From the NCBI GenBank assembly GCA_017934185.1, contig JAGBJY010000052.1, forward strand, positions 1-64,000: a stretch of 64,000 bases of DNA. Direction: 5' to 3'. Shown here one piece after another: positions 7,421 through 37,042 of this stretch. Each line of letters opens with the position of its first letter. Position 1 is the first letter of the stretch. Below the pieces are notes generated by a model, which was not told the DNA's origin, searched no databases, and was given only the letters and a program-made list of their open reading frames with translations. The DNA is from Bacteroidales bacterium (lineage in GTDB: Bacteria > Bacteroidota > Bacteroidia > Bacteroidales > UBA932). A program made the translations under genes and the position numbers.

Positions 7421-7455
7421 GCAAAAGGTCGGCTTTAAGGCGGCAGACCTTTTGC
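7421..7455. repeat. 35-bp hairpin unit, copy 1
   Basis: A perfect 10-bp inverted repeat (GCAAAAGGTC / GACCTTTTGC) bounds a 35-bp unit in the gap between aspS and secDF. The second unit at 7496-7530 has the same ends and the same total length but a different centre. It could help end secDF transcription or be a small repeated palindrome. Confidence 0.75.
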
Positions 7456-7495: not shown

Positions 7496-7530
7496 GCAAA
7501 AGGTCGGACCCTTTTGATCCGACCTTTTGC
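7496..7530. repeat. 35-bp hairpin unit, copy 2; possible secDF terminator
   Basis: A 13-bp perfect stem (7496-7508 with 7518-7530) closes a 9-base loop. It lies about 28 bases beyond the secDF stop on the minus strand, so it could act as the secDF terminator, although no long T tract follows. Its arms extend those of the unit at 7421-7455. Confidence 0.7.
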
Positions 7531-22296: not shown

Positions 22297-23790
22297 ACCG
22301 GACGCCGTACGGTAGGCCGACGGAGACATGCCGTACTGCTCCTGGAACAAACGATAGAAGGTGGACCGGCCGCCAAAGCCGGCATCTTCGCCGATGGCCT
22401 GGATTGAAAGGTCCGGCCGTCCGGACAGGGCTTCGGCCGCCCAGCGCAGACGATAATGGTTGATGAATCCGCTTACCGTGAAGCCGCTGCATTGCCGGAT
22501 GGCATCGGACAGATAGGTGCGGTTGGTTCCCAGGCGGGCACTGAGCTCGTCCCGGCCCAGCTTGGGGTTTTGGAAGAGCTGCTCGTCGTGCATGAGCCCC
22601 AAAAGCGAGGCATACAGGCGCTCCTCCGGGGTTTGGGGCTCCTGGGAAAGATGCTGCTCGGAGGCCTCCTCGGCATGGATTTCCTCCCGAGAAGCCTTGT
22701 ACAGCATGCGGTTCTTGCGGCGCAGAATGCGGGCATAGAAGAGGCTGCCAAGGGCTATGGCGGCCAGCAGGACAAGCACCAGCGTTAGGAACGCCATCCG
22801 CTGACGGGCTGCCGCGTTCTCCTGCTTTAACTCATTGAGCTGGAAGCGTTTGGTAAGCTCGTTGAGCTGCTCATTGGTCAGGTGCACCTGGGCAGAATCG
22901 TTCTCGGCCGCATAAAGCCGGTAATTGTCCACCGCCAGCGCCAGGTCTCCGTTGTCTTTCTGGAAATCGGCCAGGGCAAGGCGGTGCTGGGCCGCTTTGG
23001 CATAATTCCCGTTGCGCAACTGCCGCTGCACCAAGGTGTCCAACAGGGCATAGGCCGCCTCCTTCCGGCCATCCTGCTGCTCAAACTGGGCCACAGCTGT
23101 ATAAATCATCTCGTCCTGGCTGGGGTCGTTGATGATGGCGGCGTAGTGAAGCAGCGTATCCTTCAGGGGACGGGCCTCCTCCATGCGCCCCAAGCGCTGC
23201 AGGAGCACAAAGCGGTATCGGCTCTGTTTCAGGCGGTTGGGAACAGAAAGTTTGCCGTTCTTTCGCTCTATCTTCTCCAGGATAAAAGCGGTGGAGTCGT
23301 TCATCCCGAGGCCTTTTTCCAATTCATTCAGGTTCATGGCCACGGCCTGAAGGTTCAGCCCCGCCCTGAGCGCCCTGCCGTTTTCTCCCAGGGCCGACAG
23401 CTCCCGGAAAGCCCGCCGATAGTGCCCTTCGGCCTCCTGCGGCTGGCGGTTTCCCAGATACAGCTGGCCGAAGCAAAACTCCGTGATGGCGGTACCCAGC
23501 GGCCGCCCGCCAGCCTGCGAGGACATCTCCTCCAGCGTGGCTACGGCCTCATCGTACAGCCCCCACATCTGCTGCCGCTCAAAGAGGGAGGCATAAGCAT
23601 CAAAAAGCTGTTTCTCCGAGCCGTTTTCCAGGTGGAAATCTACCAGAGACCGGCTCTCGGCCAATACGCCGTCCTTGTCACCGGCCATGAAAAGTTCATA
23701 CATCTTGGCCCTCCGGAGGGAATCCTCCTGGCGCACCTGCTGCGGCGACAAGGCCAGCAGCCAAAACAAAGCGGCGAAAAACAGTTTCAT
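22291..23790 (-). CDS. membrane TPR-AraC family transcriptional regulator
   Basis: A 499-residue one-protein sensor-regulator typical of Bacteroidales. It has a signal peptide or membrane start, periplasmic TPR-like helices (about 30-300), one membrane segment near 320-345 (FLTLVLVLLAAIALGSLFY) and a C-terminal AraC DNA-binding domain (about 395-499). Both AraC helix-turn-helix units are visible: LSARLGTNRTYLSDAIRQ and IQAIGEDAGFGGRSTFYRLFQEQYG. ATG 23790 is used; the frame's first possible codon upstream is TTG. It probably reads an envelope signal. The target is unknown, and the converging transglutaminase gene is the nearest candidate. Confidence 0.85.
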   Translation of the reverse strand: MKLFFAALFWLLALSPQQVRQEDSLRRAKMYELFMAGDKDGVLAESRSLVDFHLENGSEKQLFDAYASLFERQQMWGLYDEAVATLEEMSSQAGGRPLGTAITEFCFGQLYLGNRQPQEAEGHYRRAFRELSALGENGRALRAGLNLQAVAMNLNELEKGLGMNDSTAFILEKIERKNGKLSVPNRLKQSRYRFVLLQRLGRMEEARPLKDTLLHYAAIINDPSQDEMIYTAVAQFEQQDGRKEAAYALLDTLVQRQLRNGNYAKAAQHRLALADFQKDNGDLALAVDNYRLYAAENDSAQVHLTNEQLNELTKRFQLNELKQENAAARQRMAFLTLVLVLLAAIALGSLFYARILRRKNRMLYKASREEIHAEEASEQHLSQEPQTPEERLYASLLGLMHDEQLFQNPKLGRDELSARLGTNRTYLSDAIRQCSGFTVSGFINHYRLRWAAEALSGRPDLSIQAIGEDAGFGGRSTFYRLFQEQYGMSPSAYRTASGL

Positions 23791-23857
23791 GTACAAAAAT
23801 ACACATTTTTGCGGATTTCAAACAGGCTTTCGCGCAGAGAGGCCTATTGCCGCTATT

Positions 23858-24140
23858 GCCGTATTGACACGCCGAAGCCGTTCAAGGCCGATTCTGTGTC
23901 CACACGGCAATGAAATGGCCCCCTTTTGGCCGAAATCGCGGCCGTGTTGACAAGAAAAAGGCGTTTCCTAACGTCGGCTGGTCAACACGGCAAGCAAAAA
24001 GCGGAGAGCCTGTCGCAGGGTCTCCGCTTTGCAGATCAGGACAAATGGATAAAACCTGATTTAGGGTCTGTATAGGGAAAATCAATGGCAAAGAACCAGA
24101 CAACAAGTATTCTTTGAATCGTGTTGTTCCTATATCAGGC
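23858..24140. repeat. cluster A of 51-bp inverted-repeat units
   Basis: This fills most of the 396-base gap 23791-24186. It holds unit 23858-23908 (ends GCCGTATTGACAC / GTGTCCACACGGC) and unit 23941-23991 (perfect 11-bp ends GCCGTGTTGAC / GTCAACACGGC), each exactly 51 bp and 32 bases apart. A terminator-like hairpin follows at 23997-24030 (AAAGCGGAGA stem). About 60 bases of sequence shared with the 35.0-kb cluster come next. At 24085-24131 (minus strand) there is a decayed copy of the 5' end of the secreted-protein gene family found at 24187-25421. Cluster B is at 32.6 kb and C at 34.9-35.4 kb. Confidence 0.85.
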
Positions 24141-24186
24141 AACTGTACGACTGTTATTGAACAGATGGGCAATACATTCAATTCAA

Positions 24187-24770
24187 TTATTTAAATGTTA
24201 GCAAAAGATTATTGGAGAAGTCGTAAGGGATATAGGGGACATCTTGTTTCTGAGAATAACACCATCCTGTTATAACACCATTGCTCACACTAATCCAGAG
24301 TTGCTCATATTCCTCCTCATAAATGACGTAACAATCGTCATTATCTTGAAAACCGTAATAGTTCCGTTGCTGTTTCAGGTTGTTACCCGGCTTCCCTCTT
24401 CCGTATTTCGTTGCAGAAAAATCGATGGCTTGAAGTTTAGAAAACATGTCGCCTACCCTGATTCCTCCATCAAGGACATCCGGAATGACGACGAAATCAG
24501 AAGAATTTGTGGAAAAGCCTTCAACATAATAGGTTGTTTCAGAGATTCTATTCATTGAGACAATAAAGCTATTATACGCATATAGCAATCTACCATATAG
24601 TCTGAATACTCTGATCCATCAAGGTTTTTCTCTAAAGGCTCTCCGTATGCGCTGATAATCTCATCCGGTGTTTTCCCGGAAAACCACTTAAGATTTCGCT
24701 GGGCATACATTGGAGCAAAGGCAATGACAAAGAACCAAAATGCTAGTATTCTTCGACTCCTGTTGTTCAT
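24187..24770 (-). pseudogene. frameshifted secreted-protein paralogue
   Basis: This is a near copy of the intact gene at 24870-25421. The first part (24552-24770) reads MNNRSRRILAFWFFVIAFAPMYAQRN with a signal peptide, then WFSGKTPDEIISAYGEP and ends after DYMVDCYMR. The rest continues in another frame (YNSFIVSMN..., YVIYEEEYEQLWISVSNG) to 24187. Aligning codons with the intact copy shows one missing base near 24578 (CG- for CGG). Restoring it gives about 193 residues. It is a true pseudogene or a sequencing error. The start context is shared with remnants at 24.1 and 34.95 kb. Confidence 0.8.
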
Positions 24771-24869
24771 ATATTGTGCCCCTTATTAAGTTATTAAAGA
24801 AGATGGCTGGGATTATCGTATGGCAATAAGGGTTAAGTAAAGGCGTTTCATATTAAGCACTTCGCGCGA

Positions 24870-25421
24870 CTATAGCAGTCGATTAGAAAAGTCGTAAGGA
24901 ATGTAAGGGCAATCTTGTTGTTGCAAATAACACCATCCGGTTATCACTCCATTGCTCACACTAATCCAGATTTGCACAAATTCCTCTTCATAAATGACGT
25001 ATTTTTCGTCATTCTCCTGAAAGCCAAAAGAACAATGAAACGGTTTTAGGCGATTACCAGGTTTTCCTCTTCCATATTTCGTTGATGAAAAATCAACGGC
25101 TTGAAGTTTGGAGAACGAGCCTCCCACCTGAATTCCTCCATCAAGGACATCTGGAATGACCACAAAATCAGAAGAATTTGTGGCAAAACTCTCCACAGAA
25201 TAGTTTGATTCGAAACTATTATTCATCGAGATAACAAAACTATTATACCGCAAATAACAGTCAACCATATGCTCCGCTCCCTCAAGATCTTTTTCCAAAG
25301 GCTCACCATATATGCGGATAATCTCATCCGGTGTTTTCCCGGAAAACCACTTAAGATTTCGCTGGGCATACACTGGAGCAAAAGCTACAGTAAATAATAA
25401 TAGAACAAGTATTTTTTTCAT
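24870..25421 (-). CDS. small secreted protein, BamE/SmpA-like pattern
   Basis: A 183-residue exported protein. It has a signal peptide MKKILVLLLFTVAFAPVYAQ, then WFSGKTPDEIIRIYGEPLEKDLEG and a C-terminal YVIYEEEFVQIWISVSNGVITGWCY. The pattern (a helix with GKTPDEIxxxYGEP, then strands ending in a VxNGxxxGW strand) recalls the SmpA/BamE and inhibitor-like fold; this is inference from motif shape only. It starts one base after the M23 peptidase stop, so the two are co-expressed. A frameshifted paralogue lies downstream and truncated copies occur at 24.1 and 34.95 kb. It could be a partner or inhibitor of the peptidase. Confidence 0.7.
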   Translation of the reverse strand: MKKILVLLLFTVAFAPVYAQRNLKWFSGKTPDEIIRIYGEPLEKDLEGAEHMVDCYLRYNSFVISMNNSFESNYSVESFATNSSDFVVIPDVLDGGIQVGGSFSKLQAVDFSSTKYGRGKPGNRLKPFHCSFGFQENDEKYVIYEEEFVQIWISVSNGVITGWCYLQQQDCPYIPYDFSNRLL

Positions 25422-25422
25422 A

Positions 25423-27186
25423 TCAGTCACAAATAATATCATTAATTCTCCCTCGGGTTGTATTGATAGTATTCACATCAATACTCCCATTTATATAATC
25501 AGCAGGATTAACCCACCGGCCGTTAAGTTTTACCCCAAGGTGCAAATGCTTATACGGAACATTATATGCATTGCCGGTTCTTCCCGTATAACCAATTAAA
25601 TCTCCCTGGTAGACCACATCGTTGATGGCGTACGGCGAGCCGGTACGCGGATTAATCGCAATAGGCGTGCCATAATTAAGATGAGCATATTGTACAATGA
25701 ACGAAGATCCGTTATCTAGAGTTGTCTTTATACGTAATTCATTACCAAATCCCCCATTACTACTCCCAGAATCAGGGATATTAGGACAATCAGAGAAAAC
25801 AGACAGAATCACCCCCGAATACATCGCAAATATGGGAGTCCCTTCCGTTGCAAGCAGGTCAATTCCTTGATGCCTTTTGGGATTACCATCCTCGTCCTTC
25901 CTTGTCATACCAAATGTCCCACCTTTATAGTTCCCCCAAGTATTGCTCGAGGCTATTTTCATGTTAATCAGTGGATTGGTAATCATCCTGGTCGAATCCG
26001 TGCAAGGCCGAGTCTGCTCATAATAAGCTGTGGATACCATGTCTGCATTAACTTGAACCATAAAACTGTCCGTTTTCCTGTCAGAGAAAGTACCTGTCCA
26101 GTAAGAGAAATCTTTAAGCCGGGAAACGCCGTCTGACCTTACATAGGACGGGGCTACGGCAACATAAGACCCCTTAACGAAATCCTGGCAGGTTTCCGGG
26201 TTGATGCTGGCGCTGACTTGAACCGTCTGCGAGCCTCCACTCTGCCCGGGATAACTACCGATCTCATTGAGAGACATTCTTATGTCATCAGGACAGTTTG
26301 TCGAAACGCGAATCCTGTATTTAAGCTCCATTGGCCGAATATCCGGACCATCATTATTCCTGTCATCATGAATTTGATAATGGCCCCCACCGGAACCGCT
26401 TCCGCCGCCCACGCCGGGATTGGACCCGGAACCTCCGCCTCCAGGCGAAGAACCGTAACACCAGGCTGGATTGATCCAACCGACATAGGCAATGCAAACT
26501 GATGGATCAAGAATTTCATTATCCCCATCCTTTGTTGGGATATTTTCAAACACTGTGACATAGCATAGGTTTTCCGGGAGATAAGTTTCGCCTTCCTCCG
26601 TTGGCAAGCCTGAAAGTATCAAGCCGTTTCTATACAGATGTGTTTCCAGAAGATTACCGTACAAATCAGAGAACAATACGACGCCCGTATAATTGGGTCT
26701 GTCAATAAAGCTGAACTCCGGAAATGCCTCAGAATAAGATTTCTCTGTAATTAAAGTGGCAACATACAGGTCGGTAAACCCTGTCCCCGGTTCCGACAAG
26801 CGGATAAGATACTTTTTAATGATGGTTGCCAGTTCGGAAGAGTAGTCCAGGCTTAGACTGAAACTGGCCTTGTGGCCGACACTGTCAAGCCTGAAAGGAA
26901 TCTGCTCATAAACAAGATTCTGAGCCGTAACGGTTTGGATATTGGTTGTATCCAGTAATGATTCTAAAGAAACCTCCTCCGAAGCGGCTCTTGTCAAGGG
27001 CCGATCCAGAATATTGCCCTTTACAGACGCAAATAATGCCAGCCGATGTTGTGGAACAAAAATCTCTGAGAATTCCTTATCTGTAATCTCTCGCTCGAGA
27101 GTGACGGGGGCTTGATTCTCCGCTTTCTGGCAAGACGCAGACAGCAAAAGCGATAAACAAAGTGAAAATGAAAGATTGATTCTCAT
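25423..27186 (-). CDS. M23 family metallopeptidase lipoprotein
   Basis: A 587-residue predicted lipoprotein (LLLSASCQ). A long N-terminal region of about 230 residues is unrecognised. A Gly/Ser linker lies at about 240-265, then a beta-rich domain (YRIRVSTNCPDDIRMSL...). The C-terminal LytM/M23 domain has complete zinc-site motifs: HQGID (His439, Asp443), YAH (His502) and HLH (His547, His549). M23 enzymes cut peptidoglycan cross-bridges or peptide chains. An intact active site on a lipoprotein suggests wall remodelling or attack on other cells. GC content is lower than flanking core genes. Two partner-like paralogues follow directly. Confidence 0.85.
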   Translation of the reverse strand: MRINLSFSLCLSLLLSASCQKAENQAPVTLEREITDKEFSEIFVPQHRLALFASVKGNILDRPLTRAASEEVSLESLLDTTNIQTVTAQNLVYEQIPFRLDSVGHKASFSLSLDYSSELATIIKKYLIRLSEPGTGFTDLYVATLITEKSYSEAFPEFSFIDRPNYTGVVLFSDLYGNLLETHLYRNGLILSGLPTEEGETYLPENLCYVTVFENIPTKDGDNEILDPSVCIAYVGWINPAWCYGSSPGGGGSGSNPGVGGGSGSGGGHYQIHDDRNNDGPDIRPMELKYRIRVSTNCPDDIRMSLNEIGSYPGQSGGSQTVQVSASINPETCQDFVKGSYVAVAPSYVRSDGVSRLKDFSYWTGTFSDRKTDSFMVQVNADMVSTAYYEQTRPCTDSTRMITNPLINMKIASSNTWGNYKGGTFGMTRKDEDGNPKRHQGIDLLATEGTPIFAMYSGVILSVFSDCPNIPDSGSSNGGFGNELRIKTTLDNGSSFIVQYAHLNYGTPIAINPRTGSPYAINDVVYQGDLIGYTGRTGNAYNVPYKHLHLGVKLNGRWVNPADYINGSIDVNTINTTRGRINDIICD

Positions 27187-27204
27187 GTAACAGATTTTGG
27201 GTGT

Positions 27205-29880
27205 TTATTGATTCACTATGCTCCATCCGCCAGGAACCGTTCCGGCAGGCCAGGAGACGCCTGCTTTGCGGGTGAGGGTGCCGGAGGCGGCGGTGCCGTC
27301 CAGCCAGCCGTCCACATTGCCCATCACGGGAGGCTCCACCTCATAGTCGCTCAGGCGCGGGTTGGTCCCCAGGCAGGTGACCGCTTGCAGGGCGGTGCAG
27401 TCCCGGAACATGTAACTGTAGCAATGGGGAACCAGCGTTGCCGCATTCAGCGCCGGGGCCGACGTGAGGGAGGTGCAGTAGTCGAACATGTTCATGTAAC
27501 AGCCTTCGGCAAGGGTTGTGGCAGGAAGGGCGGGTGTGCTTTCCAGCGCGGTGCAGCCCTGGAACATGCCGCTGTAGCACCCGGGGGCAAGCGTAGTGGC
27601 CGGGAGGGCTGGCGCCTGCGTGAGGGCGGTGCAGTTCGCAAACATTCCCGCGTAGCACCCTTCGGCCAGGCTTGTAGCAGGCAGCGCCGGGGTTTTTGTC
27701 AAAGCCGTGCAGTCCATGAACATTCCTTCATAACAGCGTTCGCCCAGCGTGGTGGCTCCCAGCGTGAGTTCCAGCGAGGGATGCATGCGGATGGGATTGG
27801 GAATGCGGTTGTAGCTTGCATCAAACGCCTGGCTTACAAAGAGTTCCCTGAGTGCAAAGGGCTCCATGGCCGTTACGTTGGGGTAATTGCTGCTGCTCAC
27901 CAGCGAACAGATGTCGCCATAGGCGTAATAGGGGTGGCTGCCATAGATGTGGGTGTCCAGGTAAGAGGCCCCGCCGGCGCCGGCGTACACCGGGTTGTCT
28001 CCCCAGAGACGTACCTTGTCTCCGGCCGATACCGGAATGATGATGGGGTCCTGGTTGGAGGTGGTGGCCGATGCCATCGAGGCACTCTTGCCCCAGGTAA
28101 TGCGCAGATGCTGCGGGTTGTCAATGGTAAAGGTTCCATCCTCAATGGCTTCCAGCGTGAGGGGCTCTTTGTCGTAGCTCCAGCCGGCAGGGATGCCGTG
28201 ATCGCCGACAGGCCACGAGGCGTCGGGGTGTTTGATGAAAACACCTGTGGAAGGAACTCTTTCTACCCAGGAGTGCGTAGCGGCATTCTCTCCCAGATTG
28301 GAGGTGGCGTAACAGGTGATTTGCTTAAGATTGAAACAGGCATTGAACATTCCCCGATAGGCATGGTACCCCGGATTGGCGGCAGGAAGAACAGGAGAGG
28401 CTTCCAGCGCCACACAGCCATCAAACATTCGGTAATACGCAGATGCGGGAACCGTCGTGGCGGGAAGGATGCCGGGCGCTTTTTTCAATCGGTCGCAATA
28501 GCCGAACATCATATAATAAGGCGACCAGTATTCTCTGGCACTAGTAGCATAAGGACCTCCAGAAAGGGTTGTGGCCGGGAGTTCCGGAGCTTCTGTCAGA
28601 TTGTCGCAATTAAAAAACATCAAAGCATAGGCACCCTTTTTCACCGTGGTGGCCGGAAGTTCCAGTTTCTTTTCAGGGTGGTTGTACAAATTGCTGTTCT
28701 GGTAGAACAACATCAAGAACGCAAACTCTTCCACCGTCTGCAGGAAGGGATTCTGCTCCGGACGCATGTAGTATTCAAAATCTATAAGGCTCATGATATT
28801 GCCGTACAGATAGACAGGGGAGCTGCATTTTATCTGTGTCTGCTGCGTAGGCGTGGACCAATAGCGGTTTCCGGTGGTGAGTTTTCCGCCCAGCAGCAGC
28901 TTGTCCCCCGCCTTCACGGGTATTTCTATGGGGTCGCCGCCCTTGACGTTGGAATTGACGGCGCTGTTGTTCACCCCTTCAAAACCATAGTACAGCGAGC
29001 GCCCGAAGGGGTTCTCTATGGTCACGATGCCGTCTTCCAGCGCCTCCAGGGTAAGGGGCGCTGCCAGGGGGTTGTACTTGCTCAGCTGCACGGTAGTCTT
29101 GTAGCACTTGCCGTTTTCCAGGGCCGCCGTCTTGGTCCCCTCGTAAATGTCGCCGCTTTCGGTCTCGGCCGTGAAGGTATATCGAATCTTTTCATCAAAG
29201 CCGCAATTGGGGATGGCAATGTAAAAACTGGTCCCCGGCTCGTCCGGGACCACCGTAACGGGATATTCCTCCTGATAGAGGGTATATGCGGTGACGGCGA
29301 GCCTTACAATCCCCTCGGTAGAGGCTGTCGCATAGGAAAAATCGAACTTGGTAATGCTCTGTGCGCTTTCAAAATCGGCATCGGAGCAGGCAAGGATGCG
29401 AACGGGATAGTAGGTGTCAATGCTTGTAATTTCCACCGTAGCAACGGCATAGTCATGGTTCTTTGAGATATCCTCGACTGTGCCTTTCTGGGCGGTGAAC
29501 GCCATGGCATTTTCCGGCATTTCCGGATATACCAGGATGAGCGGTTCTCCTGTGTAATAATTGCCGGAAATGTCCCCCGTAAGCCTGGTTCGGTTACTTC
29601 CGGTGGTTTGCGGGTACAAGGTTCCCACTTTTTCCAGGCCGCTCGAATTTGGAGAATAAACGGAAACCTTGTCCGAGCCGCTCCAGAAAAAGCTGAGATA
29701 ATTCCCGTCCAGCGCGAGCGCTTTGGTGTCTTCCCCGGCACCTTTGGTGGCGTCTACGGTGAGCGTCCAGGTTTTGCTTTCTTCGGCTTTTGCCGGGATA
29801 GCAGGCTCTTCAGGCGCCATTTCTTTGGCACAAGACAGGGCGGTCAGAAGAAGGACCGCAGCAAAGAGATGCTTTTTCAT
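27205..29880 (-). CDS. fimbrillin-like/BspA-type leucine-rich surface lipoprotein
   Basis: An 891-residue lipoprotein (LLLTALSCAK). Residues about 25-270 resemble fimbrillin/Mfa-like N-terminal domains: KTWTLTVDATKG, FFWSGSDKVSVYSP, then beta strands ending YKTTVQLSKYN. Two related modules (LTLEALEDGIVTIENP and LTLEAIEDGTFTIDNP) follow, each trailed by BspA-type leucine-rich repeats. The clearest run is near the C-terminus: repeats of about 23 residues of the form ALPATTLAEGCYxxMFxxCTAL. The end reads VSWPAGTVPGGWSIV. Likely a surface adhesin. Its ATG overlaps the stop of the microprotein gene upstream (ATGA), so they are coupled. Confidence 0.8.
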   Translation of the reverse strand: MKKHLFAAVLLLTALSCAKEMAPEEPAIPAKAEESKTWTLTVDATKGAGEDTKALALDGNYLSFFWSGSDKVSVYSPNSSGLEKVGTLYPQTTGSNRTRLTGDISGNYYTGEPLILVYPEMPENAMAFTAQKGTVEDISKNHDYAVATVEITSIDTYYPVRILACSDADFESAQSITKFDFSYATASTEGIVRLAVTAYTLYQEEYPVTVVPDEPGTSFYIAIPNCGFDEKIRYTFTAETESGDIYEGTKTAALENGKCYKTTVQLSKYNPLAAPLTLEALEDGIVTIENPFGRSLYYGFEGVNNSAVNSNVKGGDPIEIPVKAGDKLLLGGKLTTGNRYWSTPTQQTQIKCSSPVYLYGNIMSLIDFEYYMRPEQNPFLQTVEEFAFLMLFYQNSNLYNHPEKKLELPATTVKKGAYALMFFNCDNLTEAPELPATTLSGGPYATSAREYWSPYYMMFGYCDRLKKAPGILPATTVPASAYYRMFDGCVALEASPVLPAANPGYHAYRGMFNACFNLKQITCYATSNLGENAATHSWVERVPSTGVFIKHPDASWPVGDHGIPAGWSYDKEPLTLEAIEDGTFTIDNPQHLRITWGKSASMASATTSNQDPIIIPVSAGDKVRLWGDNPVYAGAGGASYLDTHIYGSHPYYAYGDICSLVSSSNYPNVTAMEPFALRELFVSQAFDASYNRIPNPIRMHPSLELTLGATTLGERCYEGMFMDCTALTKTPALPATSLAEGCYAGMFANCTALTQAPALPATTLAPGCYSGMFQGCTALESTPALPATTLAEGCYMNMFDYCTSLTSAPALNAATLVPHCYSYMFRDCTALQAVTCLGTNPRLSDYEVEPPVMGNVDGWLDGTAASGTLTRKAGVSWPAGTVPGGWSIVNQ

Positions 29881-30020
29881 AGCAGATCCCCCCATTCATT
29901 GTCGATAAACATGCCATAGTCTTCCCTGTTGCCGGAGGCTTGCAGCACGGCGTTCTCACAGTGGAGAACCAGGGTTTCGGCCCAGGGGGCCACGTAGGTG
30001 ATTTTCTTTTGCATATCCAT
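29877..30020 (-). CDS. fimbrillin-linked microprotein (47 aa)
   Basis: A short gene encoding MDMQKKITYVAPWAETLV... and ending NEWGDLL. It has no signal peptide. The motif (Y)VAPxxExLxLxxExAVLQASG resembles small ORFs that recur beside fimbrillin-type genes in Bacteroidales; function unknown. Support: its stop overlaps the lipoprotein ATG, it sits behind a recognisable promoter, and a similar microprotein lies at 36883-37023. In-frame ATGs exist at 30029, 30020 and 30014. 30020 is chosen because ATGGATATG is also the start of the lipoprotein gene at 35528, whose upstream region is homologous. Confidence 0.65.
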   Translation of the reverse strand: MDMQKKITYVAPWAETLVLHCENAVLQASGNREDYGMFIDNEWGDLL

Positions 30021-30030
30021 TTTTGCCATT

Positions 30031-30110
30031 GTTTCTGCTGCAAAGATGGCATCAATGACGCAGACACGCGTCCCAAGGTCGCAAAAGATTGTTCCAAATC
30101 CGCAAAACCC
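30031..30110 (-). promoter_or_regulatory. duplicated promoter with 21-bp tandem direct repeats
   Basis: On the minus strand two TTTTGCG repeats (30107-30101 and 30086-30080) are exactly 21 bases apart, each followed by a TTGGxAC core. Then comes TCTGCGT...GATG, a -7-like box CATCTTTG (30048-30041) and GCAGCAGAAAC. The same layout and much of the sequence recur at 35439-35516. The 21-base period resembles dimer-binding sites of LytTR-type regulators; no such regulator is in the window. Confidence 0.65.
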
Positions 30111-30116
30111 TCTGTA

Positions 30117-31388
30117 TCAGGCAGAAAGGGTGAAGCTGTGCCGAAGCCCGTGGGGCGGGACATTATCGGCCCGGATGGTCCCGCCATGCAGCCGTACGGC
30201 CTCCCGCACAATGGAAAGGCCCAGGCCTGTGCCGCCCATTTCCCGGCTCCGGCCTTTGTCGGTGCGGAAAAAGCGGTCGTACAGATGGGGGAGGCTGTCC
30301 TCGGGGACGCCGGGGCCGTTGTCGGCAAAGGAGAATTGCCAAAAAGTCCCTTCCTTTTTGGCCTGCAACGTGACGGTGCTCCCCTCTCCGGCATAGCGGA
30401 GGGCGTTGTCGGTCAAATTGCGGAAAAGGCCATAGAGGAGCTTGGCATCTCCTGTCATCGGCATCGTTTCCGGCAGGCTGCACTCCCACAGCATCTGCTT
30501 TTCTTTAAAAGCGCCCAGGGAATCCTCCTGCACCTGGCCGATGATTTCCCTTAAATCCAGCCGCTCCCGCCGGATGGGCCTCTGAGCGGCATCCAGGGTC
30601 CCCAGGTCTTCCATGAGGTCGGTGATCCTGCGGGTAAGCGCCCAGCTTCGGTCGATGAACTGGCGGCGGGTTTCCTCCGGCAGCTCCGGATGCTCATGGA
30701 GCGTCTCCAGATAGGCGCGGATGCCGGAAAGCGGGGTTTTGAGCTCGTGGGAAATGTTCTGCGTAAGTTCGCGCTGCATCTCAAGGTTTTCCCGGTCCTG
30801 CATCTGTTGCAACAGGGCCGATGTCTTCCGGGTAAAGCGGAAAAGCACCACCACCAGCACCAGCACCAGGAGGGCGGCGAACCACAGGAAGGAGGAATCG
30901 GCCTTGAGCGCCTTGGGAAGGGTGTCGTCGTAAGGGAGCGCGGCGCGGATGATGAGCTCCTGTGCGGGGATATAGGTGGCCGAGTAGAAGTACTCCTGCT
31001 CAACGGTACGGCTCACCCGGTCCAGGTCGTAGCCGCTTCCGTCCTGAAGCGCTTCCCGGATTTCCTTGCGGTCCCGATGGTCGCTCAGGTAGGGGTAATC
31101 TTTGCTGCAGTTGTCGTAGAGGACATAACCCCGCGGGTCTATGATGGTGAGCCGGAGGGCGGGAAGCGGATGCCTCCGGAGATACTGCGCCAGGCTGTCT
31201 TCCTGCAGGGGCATGGATTGCAGCGCATCGCCCAGCGCGGTGTTATAGTCCTGCAGCTGCCGGTTCAGGAGGGCAATCTTGAACGCCTTTTCCCGCCGGG
31301 CCTGGTACAGAAGAAAACAGCTGGCAAAAGCCAGGAAAAGGGCAATGATGCTGAGGAACAGCTTGCTGCTGAAACTAAGCTTCTTCAT
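30117..31388 (-). CDS. sensor histidine kinase
   Basis: A 423-residue inner-membrane sensor kinase. It has an N-terminal membrane helix (LFLSIIALFLAFASCFLLY), a periplasmic domain of about 110 residues, and a second helix (WFAALLVLVLVVVLF). The HisKA H-box is SHELKTPLSGIRAYLETL, and the HATPase has RNLTDNALRYAG (N box), FADNGPGVPEDS (G1) and GGTGLGLSIVREA (G2). It follows the response regulator, whose stop overlaps the kinase start. An in-frame ATG at 31400 would add four residues. The signal is not evident, and the divergent PepSY-like secreted protein is a likely target. Confidence 0.92.
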   Translation of the reverse strand: MKKLSFSSKLFLSIIALFLAFASCFLLYQARREKAFKIALLNRQLQDYNTALGDALQSMPLQEDSLAQYLRRHPLPALRLTIIDPRGYVLYDNCSKDYPYLSDHRDRKEIREALQDGSGYDLDRVSRTVEQEYFYSATYIPAQELIIRAALPYDDTLPKALKADSSFLWFAALLVLVLVVVLFRFTRKTSALLQQMQDRENLEMQRELTQNISHELKTPLSGIRAYLETLHEHPELPEETRRQFIDRSWALTRRITDLMEDLGTLDAAQRPIRRERLDLREIIGQVQEDSLGAFKEKQMLWECSLPETMPMTGDAKLLYGLFRNLTDNALRYAGEGSTVTLQAKKEGTFWQFSFADNGPGVPEDSLPHLYDRFFRTDKGRSREMGGTGLGLSIVREAVRLHGGTIRADNVPPHGLRHSFTLSA

Positions 31389-32055
31389 AACAATAACCAT
31401 GTCCGGGCCGGGTTACGATACAATGGGCATAAGGGGCAAGTTTTTTACGGAGCCGGGTAATGCCCACATCCACCGTCCGGCCGATGACAATGACGCCGTC
31501 CGGCCAGGCATAATCCAGCAGCTGGTCCCGGGAGTATACCGCCCCCGGGTGCGCCATGAGTAGCTCCAGGATAAGAAATTCCGTCCGGGTGAGCGGGACG
31601 GCTTTTCCGTCTACCAGCAGCTGCTTTCCCCGCTTGTCCAGGACAAGCCCGCCCTGGCCGGGGCTCCTTTCGGCCTGCCTGTGGCCACGCCGAAGCACCG
31701 CCTGGGCCCTCAGCAACAGCTCCTGCACCGAGAAGGGCTTGGTTACATAGTCGTCCACCCCTATGCGCAGTCCGTCAATAATGTCTTCGCGCGCGTTTTT
31801 AGCGGTAAGGAAGATGATGGGAATATCGGCCGTTGCCGGGTTGTCCTTCAGCAGCATGGCCATCTTCAGACCCGACATGCCGCCCAGCATCACATCCAGG
31901 ATGATAAGGCCAATGCCGCTCAGGTCTTTGGCCAGGGCCTGTTCGGCCGATGTCGCCGTCTCCACCCCGAATCCCCCGGAGGCAAAGTTGAAGCGGAGGA
32001 TATCCAGGATATCCTGCTCATCATCTACCAGCAAAACTGTTGTCGTGTTATCCAT
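31375..32055 (-). CDS. OmpR/PhoB-family response regulator
   Basis: A 226-residue regulator. The receiver domain has the acidic pocket LLVDDEQDI, phospho-acceptor Asp in LIILDVMLGGMSG near residue 55, the Thr in FLTAK and Lys in YVTKPFSV. A C-terminal winged helix (about 130-226) ends in the transactivation loop and wing typical of OmpR/PhoB. It is co-transcribed with the histidine kinase (13-25 bp overlap). It diverges from the PepSY-like gene at 32176. The shared 120-base gap holds ATATTGTAACAA-type AT-rich sequence where it may bind. Confidence 0.93.
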   Translation of the reverse strand: MDNTTTVLLVDDEQDILDILRFNFASGGFGVETATSAEQALAKDLSGIGLIILDVMLGGMSGLKMAMLLKDNPATADIPIIFLTAKNAREDIIDGLRIGVDDYVTKPFSVQELLLRAQAVLRRGHRQAERSPGQGGLVLDKRGKQLLVDGKAVPLTRTEFLILELLMAHPGAVYSRDQLLDYAWPDGVIVIGRTVDVGITRLRKKLAPYAHCIVTRPGHGYCYEEA

Positions 32056-32146
32056 ATCCAGTGCAAAAATGGAATAATTCGTCCAATTTTACAAGAGTGA
32101 AACAATATTGTAACAAGGGTGTATCGGATGGGTAACCCGGTCGGCC

Positions 32147-32154
32147 TATCTTTG
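32147..32154 (+). promoter_or_regulatory. -7 box of the PepSY-like gene
   Basis: TATCTTTG (consensus TAnnTTTG) lies 21 bases before ATG 32176. The -33 position lacks TTTG, as expected for an activated promoter. AATATTGTAACAA lies further upstream at about 32104-32116. Confidence 0.6.
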
Positions 32155-32175
32155 CACCGAGAAAATTTTTATGCC

Positions 32176-32604
32176 ATGAAAAACCCTTTGAAACTTTTCC
32201 TTGCAAGCCTGATGCTTCTGCTGCCCGCCCTGGCCCATGCCGATGGCCGGGTAATTCCCTATGAGAAACTGCCCGCCGAAGCCAAAAGCTTCATTGCCGA
32301 GTATTTCCCGTCGGCCAAGGTGCTTCAAGTGACGGCCGAGTGGGACGAATACGAAGTGCTGCTATCTGACCGCGTCCAGCTGGAGTTCAACCGCAGCGGC
32401 CTCTGGAAAAAAATCAAATGCAAAACAGACGGGGTTCCGCAGGCCGTCATTCCCTCCCGCATTGTGTCCTATTTCCAGACCCACTTCCCCGAGTACCTTA
32501 TTCTTCAGATTGAGCGGAGCCGATGGGGCTACGAAGTGGAAACCCGGGAAGGACTGGAATTTGAATTCGACAAAAACTGCAATTTTATCCGGATTGACGA
32601 CTAA
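32176..32604 (+). CDS. periplasmic PepSY-like (DUF2874) protein
   Basis: A 142-residue exported protein with a signal peptide (FLASLMLLLPALAHA). Two tandem PepSY-like units follow, of the type Pfam places in PepSY-like/DUF2874: LPAEAKSFIAEYFPSAKVLQV...WDEYEVLLSDRVQLEFNRSG, then IPSRIVSYFQTHFPEYLILQIE...YEVETREGLEFEFDKNC. In Bacteroidales these proteins often sit next to a two-component system, as here, and are strongly regulated outputs. Biochemical role unknown. The stop codon is directly followed by repeat cluster B. Confidence 0.85.
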   Translation: MKNPLKLFLASLMLLLPALAHADGRVIPYEKLPAEAKSFIAEYFPSAKVLQVTAEWDEYEVLLSDRVQLEFNRSGLWKKIKCKTDGVPQAVIPSRIVSYFQTHFPEYLILQIERSRWGYEVETREGLEFEFDKNCNFIRIDD

Positions 32605-32790
32605 AAGCAACCTGCGACAGGCTCTCCGCTTTTTGCTTGCCGTGTTGACCAGCCGACGTTAGGAAACGCCTTTTTCTTGTCAACACGGCCACGATTTTGG
32701 CCAAAGGGGGCCATTTCATTGCCGTGTGGACACAAAATCGGCCGCCGTAGAGCTGCGCGTGTCGACACGGCAATTATGTGATTTGCTGCG
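32605..32790. repeat. cluster B of 51-bp inverted-repeat units
   Basis: Inverted relative to cluster A, it begins right after the PepSY-like stop with the right half of the AAGCGGAGA hairpin. Two units follow: 32639-32689 (perfect 11-bp ends GCCGTGTTGAC / GTCAACACGGC, same core as in A and C) and 32721-32771 (ends GCCGTGTGGACAC / GTGTCGACACGGC). Both are 51 bp, 31 bases apart. The rest of the gap to 32874 shows nothing recognisable. Confidence 0.85.
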
Positions 32791-32874
32791 TGGTGTAAAA
32801 CTTGACGGACACAGGGCCGCTTCCGCTGATTACATAATGGGACCTTAGATTCTAGGTGTCTACAATGTTTCTCG

Positions 32875-33462
32875 TCAAAAAATCCATTGCTGATATAGGG
32901 ATACATCCGGAGTGTCAGCCGACAAGATTTTTTCTTTCAAACGAGACTTTCGCGTGTAATAGTTGCTGGAAGACATGCCGGTAATCATACAAATCAAAGT
33001 AGCATCGAATCCAAGGATTAGAAATACAAGGAACTGATAATCATCATCTTTTAATCTATTGACATTACGCCGAAGAGACGTCATAATCCCTCCGGTTCTT
33101 TGGTCGATAAACAACTCTCTTTCTGCTTGCCAGTCTTTGGATGAGAAAAAAGCCAATTGATGCTCAAGTCTTTGTATATACTGTTCCCTGGCCGTTTTTT
33201 CATCTTTTAATACGATTGCCCGCTCCAGGCAATTTCTGATTTCAGAGAACTGTTCACGATACATAAGCCGGCAATCCCTCTGTAATTGAAGTATTCGCTC
33301 ATCTTGACGTTTTGCATCTTCTTCCAAAGTTTCTTTAAGGCGGTTCAATTCTATGATTTGCGCTTGCAATTTCTGGTCACGTAGCCGATAGGCCAGCGTA
33401 ACAGCTATCAAAAAGATGCTGGCGGTTATGAATAGCATTAAAAATAGCAGGGAATGTGACAT
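32875..33462 (-). CDS. membrane coiled-coil HTH protein, truncated TPR-regulator type
   Basis: A 195-residue AT-rich gene. It has an N-terminal membrane helix (LLFLMLFITASIFLIAVTLAY), a coiled coil (about 30-100), and a C-terminal segment (DDYQFLVFLILGFDATLICMITGMS, then YYTRKSRLKEKI). That end matches the C-terminal helix-turn-helix of Bacteroidetes TPR-containing membrane regulators (DUF6377-like). Those proteins normally have about 300 more N-terminal TPR residues, so this one looks like a minimal or N-terminally truncated member. It diverges from the AT-rich cassette at 33693 and may control it. Recognition of the HTH is by pattern only. Confidence 0.6.
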   Translation of the reverse strand: MSHSLLFLMLFITASIFLIAVTLAYRLRDQKLQAQIIELNRLKETLEEDAKRQDERILQLQRDCRLMYREQFSEIRNCLERAIVLKDEKTAREQYIQRLEHQLAFFSSKDWQAERELFIDQRTGGIMTSLRRNVNRLKDDDYQFLVFLILGFDATLICMITGMSSSNYYTRKSRLKEKILSADTPDVSLYQQWIF

Positions 33463-33654
33463 TTTATTCTTACAAATGAGATTGAAAAAGTGGGGAAAAA
33501 CAATCTGAAAATCATTGACTTAGTGTTGCCTGTAAGATTCTCCATCTTACCGCAAGCAATAAACCGTTAATTGTTAGTAAGTTACACCGGACATTAAGCA
33601 TTAATATGTAAGACAATAAACACGAGATTCATCTTTGTACCGCTCATTTTCGGA

Positions 33655-33662
33655 TATCTTTG
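33655..33662 (+). promoter_or_regulatory. -7 box of the AT-rich cassette
   Basis: TATCTTTG matches TAnnTTTG. TTTG at 33634-33637 gives a 17-base spacer, slightly short. The first gene starts 31 bases downstream. Confidence 0.55.
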
Positions 33663-33692
33663 CGCTTACAAAAATACTTAAAATCAAAATTT

Positions 33693-34111
33693 ATGCAAAA
33701 CACAAAAACTACTATCCTTCTCATTCTTGCGATTGCGCTATCCTGTTTGTCTTGTTCCAAAGCAAAGCACCAAGACTCGTCCTTTTTAGATAGCGACGCC
33801 GCATTGTTGTCTAAACTTCAGTCGTATAATGAAAACTTTCTTCTCAGGAATTGAAAACACTTTTATCGGATATCTATTGGGGCGTTGACAATACAGCGAT
33901 TGATCTGTCGATTTCAGACGCTGTAGTGAGTATGTTCTTAGATGCGTATACCATGATTTCTGAAGACTCCGTTTTAGAGATTGCTAACGACTATGTTGAA
34001 ATCATATCCGATTCCCATGCCCTATCTGTAGAGGAAGAACGGGAGGTATATTCCGCACTGTCTGTCGCGGTAAATACAACTTATTATTGGTCTCAGCGTT
34101 TAGGCAGATGA
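33693..34111 (+). pseudogene. lipoprotein gene split by a frameshift
   Basis: The first frame (33693-33854) encodes a lipoprotein signal (LLILAIALSCLSCSKA) and stops after KLQSYNENFLLRN. The second frame (33851-34111) continues naturally as ELKTLLSDIYWGVDNTAIDLSISDAVVSMFLDAYTMISED, ending YYWSQRLGR. Reading the alternative frame near 33838-33850 gives SSQELKTLL, so one indel there joins the two into about 140 residues. The first frame is too short and lacks a fold alone. No homologue recognised. GC content is far below the core. It may be a mutation, a sequencing error, or less likely programmed frameshifting. Confidence 0.6.
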
Positions 34112-34476
34112 AACTCATCACGTTTATTAACGACACTGTGACGGATTATTTCTTGACGGTGCTTTTTCTGCTGCTGTTGAAATCCAACAGCGCAGAGAAT
34201 TGTTTCCCATTACTGTCAACGGTCTATTTGGTCGCGGCGGCAATTATTCTCATTATAATTGTTGTATACACCGCTAAAACGAACAGATTAAAAACGCCCA
34301 AGCATGGTTACTTGTTCAATTCCGTTTTTATGGGACTCATTCCCATCCTTCTCCTCCAAAAAGAGAGCATAACGGAAGTCCATACTCCTGTAATAATAAT
34401 AGTCGTGGAGATTATCGCTTTGCTGTTTGCAATAGGTGGAATTCTTCCTATATTTGTGAGAGATGATAAACAATAG
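34108..34476 (+). CDS. small polytopic membrane protein (122 aa)
   Basis: Hydrophobic protein with about four membrane helices: FLTVLFLLLLK, VYLVAAAIILIIIVVY, SVFMGLIPILLLQK and VIIIVVEIIALLFAIGGILPIFV. ATG 34108 overlaps the upstream stop (ATGA), so translation is coupled. It overlaps the next gene by 14 bases. No family recognised. The three-gene layout (lipoprotein plus two small membrane proteins) in an AT-rich island suggests a transferred cassette; function unknown. Confidence 0.65.
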   Translation: MKLITFINDTVTDYFLTVLFLLLLKSNSAENCFPLLSTVYLVAAAIILIIIVVYTAKTNRLKTPKHGYLFNSVFMGLIPILLLQKESITEVHTPVIIIVVEIIALLFAIGGILPIFVRDDKQ

Positions 34477-34843
34477 TTGGCTAAGATATCTGGAAGACCG
34501 CACTTTGCTTCTCTTTGCGGAAGGTGGCGTCTTTTTCTTTGTGGTTGCCACACTGATTTCTGAACTGTCCGAAGTTCTCTTCTGGATATGTATAACAATT
34601 GCAGCTATTTGTGAACTTTTGTCAATAGTCCGTTTCGTTTTATTAATCAAGAAGTATCGCGCTGTCAATGTGAACAAATTCCCAAGTTTTCTGACTTTGT
34701 GGCAATTCTTGTTTTTAGGTTTTTTCTATTTATCCAAGAGTCATGACAGCCTGCGTAAGTGGATGGCTATCGGATTAATAGCTGTATCTGTCATCTATGT
34801 TGTCGTTTTGGTGAATAAAATGATAAAAGAAAGGGATTATTAG
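34463..34843 (+). CDS. small polytopic membrane protein (126 aa)
   Basis: A second membrane protein of the AT-rich cassette. About four helices are visible: LLFAEGGVFFFVVATLI, VLFWICITIAAICELLSIV, FLTLWQFLFLGFFYL and WMAIGLIAVSVIYVVVLV. A positively charged tail (NKMIKERDY) suggests a cytoplasmic C-terminus. It overlaps the previous gene by 14 bases. No family recognised. Codon use is AT-rich like its neighbours. Confidence 0.65.
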   Translation: MINNSWLRYLEDRTLLLFAEGGVFFFVVATLISELSEVLFWICITIAAICELLSIVRFVLLIKKYRAVNVNKFPSFLTLWQFLFLGFFYLSKSHDSLRKWMAIGLIAVSVIYVVVLVNKMIKERDY

Positions 34844-34929
34844 CCATAAGGCCTGTATTCCGACTGCACGCGGAGGTACTCTCGCCTGCCGGTTACGTTC
34901 CCCCGTAGTGGAACATAATGAATCTATAA

Positions 34930-35429
34930 CTTAATAAGGGGCACAATATATGAACAACAGGATTCGAAGAATACTAGCATTCTGGTTCTTTGCTATTGTT
35001 TTTCCTATACAGCCCTTAAATCAGGTTTTATCCATTTGTCCTGATCTGCAAAGCGGAGACCCTGCGACAGGCTCTCCGCTTTTTGCTTGCCTTGCCGCCG
35101 ATCCGCAAAACTGGCCATATACGTCCTGCAAATGTATCGGCGGCAGCCATTTCGGCTTTTTTCGCCCAAGACCTTGCCGCCGATCCGCAAAACCGCCATT
35201 CTGTGCGTTGTAACGGTATCGGCGGCCATTCGCTGGAACTGGGCGCCTTCGCCTCAGCCTGGACTACGTCCTACACTGACCACGTGGCCAGCCGTGTTGA
35301 CCAGCCGACGTTAGGAAACGCCTTTTTCTTGTCAACACGGCCACGATTTTGGCCAAAGGGGGCCATTTCATTGCCGTGTTGACACGCGCAGCTTCCCGAT
35401 GGCCGATTATGTGTCCACACGGCAAGAGA
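34930..35429. repeat. cluster C: gene remnant plus four 51-bp inverted-repeat units
   Basis: This occupies the 684-base gap 34844-35527. It begins with the shared leader TTAATAAGGGGCACAATATA and a remnant of the secreted-protein 5' end. Next are the sequence block shared with cluster A and the AAAGCGGAGA hairpin (35050-35082). Four units follow, each exactly 51 bp: 35094-35144 and 35176-35226 (ends GCCGCCGAT / ATCGGCGGC, same first 18 bases, different centres), then 35291-35341 and 35373-35423 (GCCGTGTTGAC-type ends). Gaps are 31, 64 and 31 bases. The last unit is inverted relative to its relatives in A and B. The stretch 34844-34929 shows nothing recognisable. Confidence 0.85.
34950..35010 (+). 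pseudogene. 5' remnant of the 24-kb secreted-protein family
   Basis: ATG 34950 and the next 16 or so codons (MNNRIRRILAFWFFAIV) closely match the start of the frameshifted gene at 24770 on the opposite strand, including the upstream TTAATAAGGGGCACAATATA. Homology then breaks into the repeat block. It is only the signal-peptide end of the gene. Confidence 0.75.
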
Positions 35430-35438
35430 CTGACGTCT

Positions 35439-35516
35439 TTTTGCGCTTACGGGACAAGGTTTTGCGCACTTGGGACAAGGGTCTGCGTTTCGATGACCAT
35501 TTTTGCAGCAGAAACC
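35439..35516 (+). promoter_or_regulatory. duplicated promoter with 21-bp tandem direct repeats
   Basis: Two copies of a TTTTGCGC..GGGACAAGG element (GGGACAAGG at 35451-35459 and 35472-35480) are 21 bases apart. They are followed by GTCTGCGT, GATGACC, a -7-like box CATTTTTG (35498-35505) and GCAGCAGAAAC. The arrangement is homologous to 30031-30110 on the other strand. The lipoprotein ATG is 23 bases beyond the -7 box. Confidence 0.65.
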
Positions 35517-35527
35517 CAAAAACAGAA

Positions 35528-36880
35528 ATGGATATGAAAAAGTATTTGACTTTTTTTGTGGCACTTGCCGCCTTTGTTTCCTGCCAGAAGGAAAACACAC
35601 TTGACCAGCCCTTCCCCACCACCGGCATTCCGGTTACCTTTGAACTTACCGCAACACAGGACAATGCCGGCACCATCACCAAAGCCCGCAAGACCGAATG
35701 GACGGCCGGCGATGTCATCTACGTGTTTTTGGAGCAGTTATCCGCTCCTTTTCATGTGCAGATGCATTATGACGGCACTTCCTGGACAAGCAAGGCCATG
35801 AACGGACTCAGCGAAATTCCGTCAACGGATCTTGGCCTGTCCGAAAAGGATATGGGGTTTATGCGCGCGGTTTATTACCCCTTTCACAGTAACCCTGTGG
35901 CCATAGAAACTTCCTATGGGGCCGATTTTTCCGTCCGCTTCCAAAACGGCTACCCGGACAGCTATTATCTTACGGCCCAGCTCATCTATGAAGTGCGTGA
36001 TGGGAAGGTGTCCGGCGCTTTTGACATGCGTATCCCGGATGAGTTCGTCCAGTTTTGGATTGAGGACGCAGCAGCCGATACCGCCCGGCAGGTGCGGCTG
36101 TACAACGAAGTGATTCTGCCAGAAAGAGTAGAGGGTGTTTATTTCAATTCCGGCTATGGTTCAGGAATCGTTGGCGGCCCCACCAACCCGGGCGCCCCGT
36201 ACCTGACCGGCTATCCTTACGAGGGTGGATGGCTATTCAGCGGAATAATCAACGACGCTTACCTCGACAACCTTTTGGAACCGTGTTACGTTTTTGGAAA
36301 AGCGGAAATGACGCTGGACTCTGAGGGGAATGCCATAGATATGGAAATGGAAACCCTCTTTGTGGAACACAGGAACATTCATAGCTTGGACGCCATTATC
36401 CTGCCCCCTTGGGGAAGTGCTCGCTGGCAGCCTTTCGGCCCCGGAAAAACCGTTGAGTTCCATGGCGACCACTGGCAAACCGTCAATTATGGAGTGGACC
36501 TGATGCGGAATTATTTCCTGGGTGGTTCTGATTTTGATTTTAATACGGCCAATAGCCTTGGCCTTTACCTTCCTTCAAAGGACCAGTGGCGCAACCTCCT
36601 CCCTCTTGGATCTTTGGACCCTCACGTTTATCAAATAAAATTCTATGGCGATTACTGCCTCGTTGTTATATTCGATCTTATAGAAGGAAAGCACTTGATT
36701 TTCCCTGACGCTGTCTATTGGACTTCAACAGATCTCGTCGGATCAGATGAGGCGATAAGCGTGCATGTATGGTATTGGGCATTCAACCCGCAGCTACGGG
36801 AACGGAGATTTCAAATACGCGCCCTTGCCGGCCCCACCGACCCTGTCCTGAATACTTTTAACCCGGAGATTGTATATTAG
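35528..36880 (+). CDS. fimbrillin-like surface lipoprotein with FISUMP-like end
   Basis: A 450-residue lipoprotein (FFVALAAFVSCQKE). The N-terminal domain resembles fimbrillin/Mfa-like proteins: IPVTFELTATQ, TEWTAGDVIYVFL, and later GKVSGAFDMRIPDEFVQFWIED. The C-terminal part (LGLYLPSKDQWRNLLPLG..., AVYWTSTDL, FQIRALAG) matches the pattern of FISUMP-type ends. Probably a pilus subunit or surface adhesin. ATG 35528 or 35534. A microprotein gene follows after 2 bases. Its promoter region is a duplicate of the one at 30.0 kb. Confidence 0.75.
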   Translation: MDMKKYLTFFVALAAFVSCQKENTLDQPFPTTGIPVTFELTATQDNAGTITKARKTEWTAGDVIYVFLEQLSAPFHVQMHYDGTSWTSKAMNGLSEIPSTDLGLSEKDMGFMRAVYYPFHSNPVAIETSYGADFSVRFQNGYPDSYYLTAQLIYEVRDGKVSGAFDMRIPDEFVQFWIEDAAADTARQVRLYNEVILPERVEGVYFNSGYGSGIVGGPTNPGAPYLTGYPYEGGWLFSGIINDAYLDNLLEPCYVFGKAEMTLDSEGNAIDMEMETLFVEHRNIHSLDAIILPPWGSARWQPFGPGKTVEFHGDHWQTVNYGVDLMRNYFLGGSDFDFNTANSLGLYLPSKDQWRNLLPLGSLDPHVYQIKFYGDYCLVVIFDLIEGKHLIFPDAVYWTSTDLVGSDEAISVHVWYWAFNPQLRERRFQIRALAGPTDPVLNTFNPEIVY

Positions 36881-36882
36881 CC

Positions 36883-37023
36883 ATGGAAAGAAAGCAAGTC
36901 TACCTGGTACCGGGTTGTGTGTTGTACGAGCTTCAACTGGAAGCTGTCATTGCCGCCAGCGGAGACCCCGCCGCATTGGAGCCCCCCGTATTCAATGGCT
37001 TCGGGACGGAGACGCTGTGGTAA
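36883..37023 (+). CDS. fimbrillin-linked microprotein (46 aa)
   Basis: ATG 36883, two bases after the lipoprotein stop, opens a 46-codon gene ending TAA 37021-37023. It reads MERKQVYLVPGCVLYELQLE, then AVIAASGDPAALEPP, FNGFGTETLW. It shares with the 29.9-kb microprotein a YxxP start, a hydrophobic alternating stretch, an Ala-Val-x-x-A-S-G core and an acidic/aromatic tail. No signal peptide. Function unknown. Confidence 0.6.
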   Translation: MERKQVYLVPGCVLYELQLEAVIAASGDPAALEPPVFNGFGTETLW

Positions 37024-37042
37024 GCGGCGAAAACCGATGGCG

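Follow-up and report, generated by a model that had tools for sequence, protein, structure and literature searches.

Introduction

Genes for Y1-type HuH proteins can have palindromes on one or both flanks, often paired and repeated elsewhere in the genome, with a palindrome family for each gene; this is the arrangement described for REP-associated tyrosine transposases (RAYTs) and repetitive extragenic palindromic (REP) sequences in the parts of PMC2817692 and PMC6006769 cited here. In the same part of PMC6006769, class 2 of the TnpA-Y1 proteins is marked by the tyrosine motif Y---NP, and GT[AG]G feet are given for most of subclasses 2.2, 2.4, 2.5, 2.7 and 2.8. Subclasses 2.1 and 2.3 (Quentin et al. 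2018; PMC6006769, section cited) are long, with medians of 238 and 325 amino acids (aa) and extra C-terminal domains, while subclass 2.6 is found in Bacteroidetes and has atypical structures without GT[AG]G, a median of 179 aa and the motif YIH[QN]NP (Table 1 of that paper). The TIRtrons, or TIRYT, are tyrosine transposase genes with flanking repeats that are unrelated to GTAG REPs and in some cases repeated elsewhere (PMC3733652, as excerpted). Here we describe eight palindromic units of 51 bp in the first 64,000 nucleotides (the window) of contig JAGBJY010000052.1 (C48) from a Bacteroidales draft genome (GCA_017934185.1; 2.13 Mb, 62 contigs, 85.8% complete). They are most likely REP-like elements belonging to a divergent family of RAYT-type (Y1, HuH) single-strand DNA nucleases of about 310 aa, the gene for which adjoins such units in related gut bacteria.

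The system resembles RAYT/REP (REPtron, BIME, REPIN; TnpA-Y1 class 2) in that the ~310-aa gene is also flanked by palindromes repeated in the same genome. REPs measure 20-40 bp in the cited part of PMC3733652, whereas the units here span 51 or 52 bp, some 29 nt of which form a conserved core enclosed by the arms. They lack a GT[AG]G foot, and the tyrosine motif is Y[IV]xR[NQ]G[LF]HH instead of Y---NP. Unlike RAYTs, none of the six ~310-aa proteins scanned (one of them partial) matched Pfam Y1_Tnp even at E 1, the profile with which the survey of Quentin et al. was seeded at E 0.01 (PMC6006769, methods as excerpted). Their length is like that of subclasses 2.1 and 2.3, but those are reported without REP-like sequences in the relevant passages of PMC6006769, whereas the ~310-aa gene has them. 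With subclass 2.6 the system shares the Bacteroidetes host and repeats without the GT[AG]G consensus, but it differs in protein length and in the R[NQ]G[LF]HH motif. It is also like the TIRtrons in pairing a tyrosine transposase gene with non-GTAG flanking repeats, although the repeats here are palindromes of near-constant length in arrays, a comparison made by description. A literature search, limited in coverage, returned no paper joining RAYTs with Bacteroidales, nor one joining palindromic repeats, Bacteroidales and a tyrosine transposase.

Results

A gene recurring beside the units in related genomes

When open reading frames (ORFs) around the arrays were compared, one gene recurred in 6 of the 20 fetched relative loci; its distance to a unit was about 200 bp or less in five loci and 867 bp in L116. 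Other genes common to array loci were found in 2-3 loci each, several of them syntenic. A protein search with five of the ~310-aa proteins returned 31 loci, all in assemblies named Bacteroidales or Bacteroidia; where a title gave a source, it was goat, deer, dairy cattle or water buffalo. Units were present within 500 bp of the gene in 26 of the 31 loci, always downstream and in 12 loci upstream as well; leaving aside the six contigs that the array comparison had already yielded, the count was 21 of 25. Unit density was 2.76 matches/kb within 500 bp and 0.00-0.61/kb in the farther 500-bp bins. The misses were L167, where the gene has an in-frame stop and is flanked on either side by 53-bp palindromes at distances of about 680 and 830 bp, L170, L171, L173, whose nearest unit lies 912 bp upstream, and L177, where the contig end cuts the gene. 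At the gene loci, 69 of 130 unit places were 51 bp long and 57 were 52 bp, and neighbour gaps were exactly 31 bases in 59 of 72 cases and 41-42 in 9. The genes next to the ~310-aa gene were constant in some species groups (e.g., L097/L113/L116; L155/L160).

Beside 31 ordinary Y1_Tnp loci (L040 left out), 0 matches were observed at E 0.1, the control loci being mostly from genomes without units and only 6 from unit-bearing genomes. R1, a covariance model built on 27 sequences of the 51-bp unit, detected the family in 11 of the 101 genus genomes searched. With the unit and gene counts taken as covering the same set, both were found in 7 genomes, units only in 4, the gene only in 2 and neither in 88, giving a p value of 6e-7. 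Five of the 7 genomes with both had supplied the seed proteins; p rose to 0.019 when these five were dropped and to 0.15 when G061 was removed as well, so that co-occurrence across whole genomes is then weak; the 450-bit line for the gene was set after the scores were seen. The two "gene only" genomes are less clear-cut than this count implies. In one of them (G110, locus L123), a smaller search gave four R1 matches of span 48 (E 0.002-0.05), and in the other (G119, L125) one weak match was obtained (E 0.09). The matches in L123 form two pairs, at 1351-1481 and 2986-3116, with the members of each pair 83 bp apart, and possibly represent a shorter-span branch of the 51-bp family.

Identity of the ~310-aa protein

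The NCBIfam model REP_Tyr_transpos matched none of five proteins at E<=1, and Pfam or NCBIfam matches of other kinds (E 0.14-0.19) were at chance level only. In hhalign, however, the comparison with five Y1-type proteins from the genus (two being from our own genome and with Pfam Y1_Tnp above cut-off) gave 99.4% and E 3.8e-21 over 269 columns. The HuH and tyrosine motifs fell in register (MSTHVH with LMSNHVH; YILRNGLHH with YVQANPVAA), and STH[VAF]H and Y[IV]xR[NQ]G aligned with the NHVH and YxxxNP of Y1_Tnp-positive proteins. The class-2 motif Y---NP itself was not found; the 27 proteins of profile A4 carry Y[IV]xR[NQ]G[LF]HH. In our own genome the five-protein profile A3 matched only the Y1 genes on C22 (54.6 bits, E 9e-15) and C25 (35.6 bits). 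Because of the hhalign alignment and the reach of A3 to the C22 gene, the ~310-aa protein is identified as a homolog of RAYT-type HuH proteins that has a signature of its own. A PDB sequence search with A4 returned 2 matches, both neuraminidases at E 0.8, which were set aside as chance.

Length and arrangement of the units across the genome

The type-1 pattern GCCGTGTNGAC-N29-GTCNACACGGC, with at most 2 mismatches, had 32 forward matches genome-wide and its reversed control had 0, showing that the pattern is not due to chance. When the unit span was left free over about 37-67 bp, type 1 was 51 bp in 25 of 29 forward matches and 52 bp in the other 4, and type 2 was 51 bp in 18 of 18 matches (controls 0). 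The preferred 51-bp length that the original prediction had proposed from the window was thus borne out genome-wide. Type-1 units formed arrays repeating every 82 (83) bp, found on C2 (6 units), C34 (5), C24 (4) and C35 (3). Type-2 units were more common as 133-bp pairs (unit-31-unit) than as singles, and we read the two units of a pair as inverted, judging from core orientation. Another type-2 pair lies beyond the window at C48:76795-76927. Some arrays were close to contig ends, e.g., at C2:309, C24:154 and C46:350. When own units were set against frames of at least 150 aa, 47 of 52 were not deep inside a frame (250 bp either side) and 5 were, a count resting on open frames and not on called genes. 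None of the 104 feet of own units carried the GT[AG]G typical of canonical REPs. The earlier suggestion of REP/BIME elements moved by a Y1 (RAYT) transposase is partly supported, in kind, by the divergent RAYT-like HuH gene that adjoins units in relatives, but not in the canonical foot.

Arms and core

Type-1 and type-2 arms are unrelated, and the core is common to both. Shuffles were exceeded (p<=0.05) by 17 of 17 distinct type-2 cores scored with a type-1 core profile and by 28 of 28 type-1 cores scored with a type-2 profile, the units having been oriented together beforehand, which slightly favours a shared core. One spacer end, GGCCGATTTCYTT, is also common to types 1 and 2 by eye. Fixed ends with variable cores, as first read from the window, therefore apply to the type-1 arms of the own genome; beyond them the core is shared by both arm types and it is the arms that vary from species to species, largely with compensation. 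The covariation set comprised 21 units (16 gene-flanking units from relatives and 5 of the 8 window units; 10 loci with a chosen unit of 52 bp were left out). The 11 arm pairs in this set were 95.7% paired, a percentage biased upward because the relatives' units were found by a model that contains the arm pairs. Arm cells changed on both sides numbered 33, compared with a shuffled mean of 8.6 and with 2-8 for slid partners.

Distribution and turnover in relatives

An exact search for type-1 arms was negative in 60 other genomes, of which 36 belong to the genus of the own genome. R1 gave 57 matches in the own genome (G000), 48 in G062 and 1-12 in the others (1 in G094), with some places matched on both strands. 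Spans were nearly all 51 or 52 bp and neighbour steps were 82 or 83 bp. In a 247-genome sample of the order, R1 found the own genome only at E 0.001. Profile A4 had 0 matches at E 1e-20 in the same sample, a negative that says little, since the genus was represented by just one genome besides the own and known positives were absent. In viral contigs a pattern was matched by 26 stretches, none of which codes for a relative.

In 4 of the 6 genomes examined, nearly all other units shared the arms of the units beside the gene. Agreement was 47 of 54 units in G062 (one of the 54 probably false), 14 of 14 in G019 and 3 of 3 in both G028 and G078; these counts include the gene-side units, and overlapping loci count some places twice. 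At orthologous sites of close species, two units faced one (L149/L153) or a relic (L154/L158), showing turnover of unit number and not insertion. Two species, compared at L105 and L148 by BLAST coordinates only, differ by about 5.9 kb of DNA that separates the gene and its array from another array, suggesting an array-mediated rearrangement.

Discussion

How the units may have arisen

Since the units of relatives adjoin the ~310-aa gene, the 51-bp palindromes are probably small mobile targets of this transposase-like enzyme. In a single-stranded unit the 9-11 bp arms would pair to form a hairpin, leaving the conserved core in a loop of some 29 nt. By analogy with RAYT/REP, the enzyme would read arms and core, cut at or near the foot and rejoin the ends, and 133-bp pairs could thereby move to new sites; tandem arrays may then expand through recombination or slippage between adjacent units. 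One protein that has to hold arms and core in register would be expected to impose a fixed span. The copies in our own species seem to be orphans, the gene having been lost or lying in the missing 14% of the draft.

Several observations weigh against this reading, in addition to the limits of the control set and of the co-occurrence given above. No close homolog of the ~310-aa gene was found in the own 85.8%-complete draft, and the unit-bearing genomes G034, G075 and G106 are without a strong gene match. Arms other than those beside the gene were carried by 2 of 5 counted units in G005 and 5 of 11 in G061. All nine spacers of 41-42 bp, in place of 31, belong to L172, a gene locus with type-1 arms. 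No clean empty site was found in the comparisons of L154/L158 and L149/L153, and L113/L116 was uninformative. Two of the five covariation measures did not exceed shuffles, namely arm pairs changed on both sides (6 versus 4.8) and further arm pair types (12 versus 9.8). A hairpin stem inside the core was rejected for want of clear covariation. Arm-specific coevolution with the protein was also rejected, as Mantel r was 0.27 for arms and 0.29 for the core and hence unspecific. An AlphaFold model from 27 sequences was poor (pLDDT 48, pTM 0.29) and was not used.

A more specific form of this idea is put forward tentatively, at somewhat less than even chances. The gene would represent an unclassified Y1 HuH branch, found in one genus, whose palindromes have two parts: a core of about 29 nt common to the close branch, and exchangeable arms of 9-11 bp serving as a species code. 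The arms would have been swapped repeatedly, two arm types being present in the own genome, with the span kept at about 51 bp, and recognition would thus depend on geometry plus core instead of a GT[AG]G guide.

It is also conceivable, though unlikely, that a domesticated RAYT-like regulator binds the units as DNA operators (dyads) or RNA hairpins and no longer moves them. The conserved gene neighbours in some species groups would fit such a regulator, arm symmetry suits a duplex dyad as well as a hairpin, and PMC8049555 (part cited) describes RAYTs as domesticated transposases with vertical inheritance. However, copies lie on many contigs in numbers that range widely between G000, G062 and G094, and unit number varies at orthologous sites of close species; this spread and these differences require amplification at some time. 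We consider it very improbable that segmental duplication and unequal crossing-over, with no enzyme involved, dispersed an ordinary inverted repeat. Three window units do belong to one duplicated segment and the 82-bp arrays resemble tandem duplication, but the dispersal over many contigs, the fixed span in two arm families and ten other genomes, and the local association with one gene family all speak against it. Least credible of all is that the units serve a tyrosine or serine recombinase as recombination sites (invertible segments, or attC-like sites of integrons). The inverted reading of paired units and the rearrangement break near arrays in L105 versus L148 would suit such sites. When the genes shared among array loci were compared, without a screen for recombinase families, no evidence of such sites came up and the RAYT-like gene was the most widely shared, an argument that is weak because the families of the other genes were not named. 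Elements of a RAYT-type enzyme remain the explanation that we favour.

Features of the window

All eight units were recovered at the positions originally predicted, each exactly 51 bp, with gaps of 32, 31, 31, 64 and 31 bases as first described (Table 1).

Table 1. Coordinates of palindromic units and spacers in the window.
Feature	Position	Strand	Remark
Type-1 51-bp palindrome unit	23858..23908	.	One mismatch to type-1 pattern; R1 E 6e-5
32-bp spacer	23909..23940	.	
Type-1 51-bp unit, perfect 11-bp arms	23941..23991	.	Reverse complement identical to 32639-32689 and 35291-35341
Type-1 51-bp unit	32639..32689	.	Pattern match
31-bp spacer	32690..32720	.	
Type-1 51-bp unit	32721..32771	.	Pattern match
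Type-2 51-bp unit, GCCGCCGAT arms	35094..35144	.	Pattern match
31-bp spacer inside 133-bp type-2 pair	35145..35175	.	
Type-2 51-bp unit	35176..35226	.	Pattern match
Type-1 51-bp unit	35291..35341	.	Pattern match
31-bp spacer	35342..35372	.	
Type-1 51-bp unit	35373..35423	.	Pattern match
Third palindrome family, 35 bp	7421..7455	.	9-copy genome family
Third palindrome family, 35 bp	7496..7530	.	9-copy genome family

The units starting at 23941, 32639 and 35291 are one identical sequence within a duplicated segment (96-99% over 72-100 nt) and are therefore not independent copies. The clusters are linked by repeats of 72-107 nt with 92-99% identity, and the repeats linking clusters 1 and 3 carry a 33-bp terminator-like hairpin. 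These two clusters share an inverted segmental duplication, 23975-24081 versus 34999-35105 (107 nt, 92%). A tandem duplication of about 670 bp with about 80% identity occupies 24211-25416, and its two small ORFs had no Pfam match at E 0.001. An Rfam scan of window positions 20000-38000 gave nothing at gathering score. The window had been described as free of transposases or recombinases of the kinds in question; for Y1 this was confirmed, as a PF01797 search found 3 genes in the genome, all elsewhere (C22, C25 and C39), and the Pfam scan of other window genes covered 10, near the clusters.

Other palindrome families near Y1 genes

The three own Y1_Tnp genes were rejected as cognate enzymes of the 51-bp units, the palindromes near them being of other families. 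For the 35-bp family, 9 of 9 own-genome copies were exactly 35 bp when 28-58 bp was allowed, and one copy is some 200 bp away from the C22 Y1 gene; the core of one own 35-bp sequence was too short for core-profile scoring. PF01797 was matched in 78 of the 101 genus genomes. Ordinary Y1/RAYT genes with their own palindromes of about 30-50 bp nearby were seen at L025, L041, L044, L054, L058, L060 and L064.

Among 24 further homolog loci (L123-L146), matched palindromes were found in 8 (L124, L128, L129, L132, L133, L135, L141 and L144), a count made without a shuffled control and with L126 not counted. In L124 (G094) the listed 53-bp palindrome is a 31-bp spacer with the facing arms; the units themselves have CCGCGTTGCG-type arms, a span of 53 and a weak R1 match (E 0.05-0.08). 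The palindromes of L129 also matched R1 weakly, and 4 of 4 were above shuffles with the core profile (p of 0.002 or less). For nine sequences of L124, L128, L133, L141, L144 and L167, p was 0.060-0.77, the two from L124 being spacers.

Significance

If this reading is true, the RAYT/REP world would be extended to a long HuH protein that has been missed by family databases; the long subclasses known so far (2.1 and 2.3) are said to have no REP-like repeats in the part of PMC6006769 cited. A series of arm variants on a common core, with a near-constant span, would make the recognition and maintenance of repeats by domesticated transposases directly testable.

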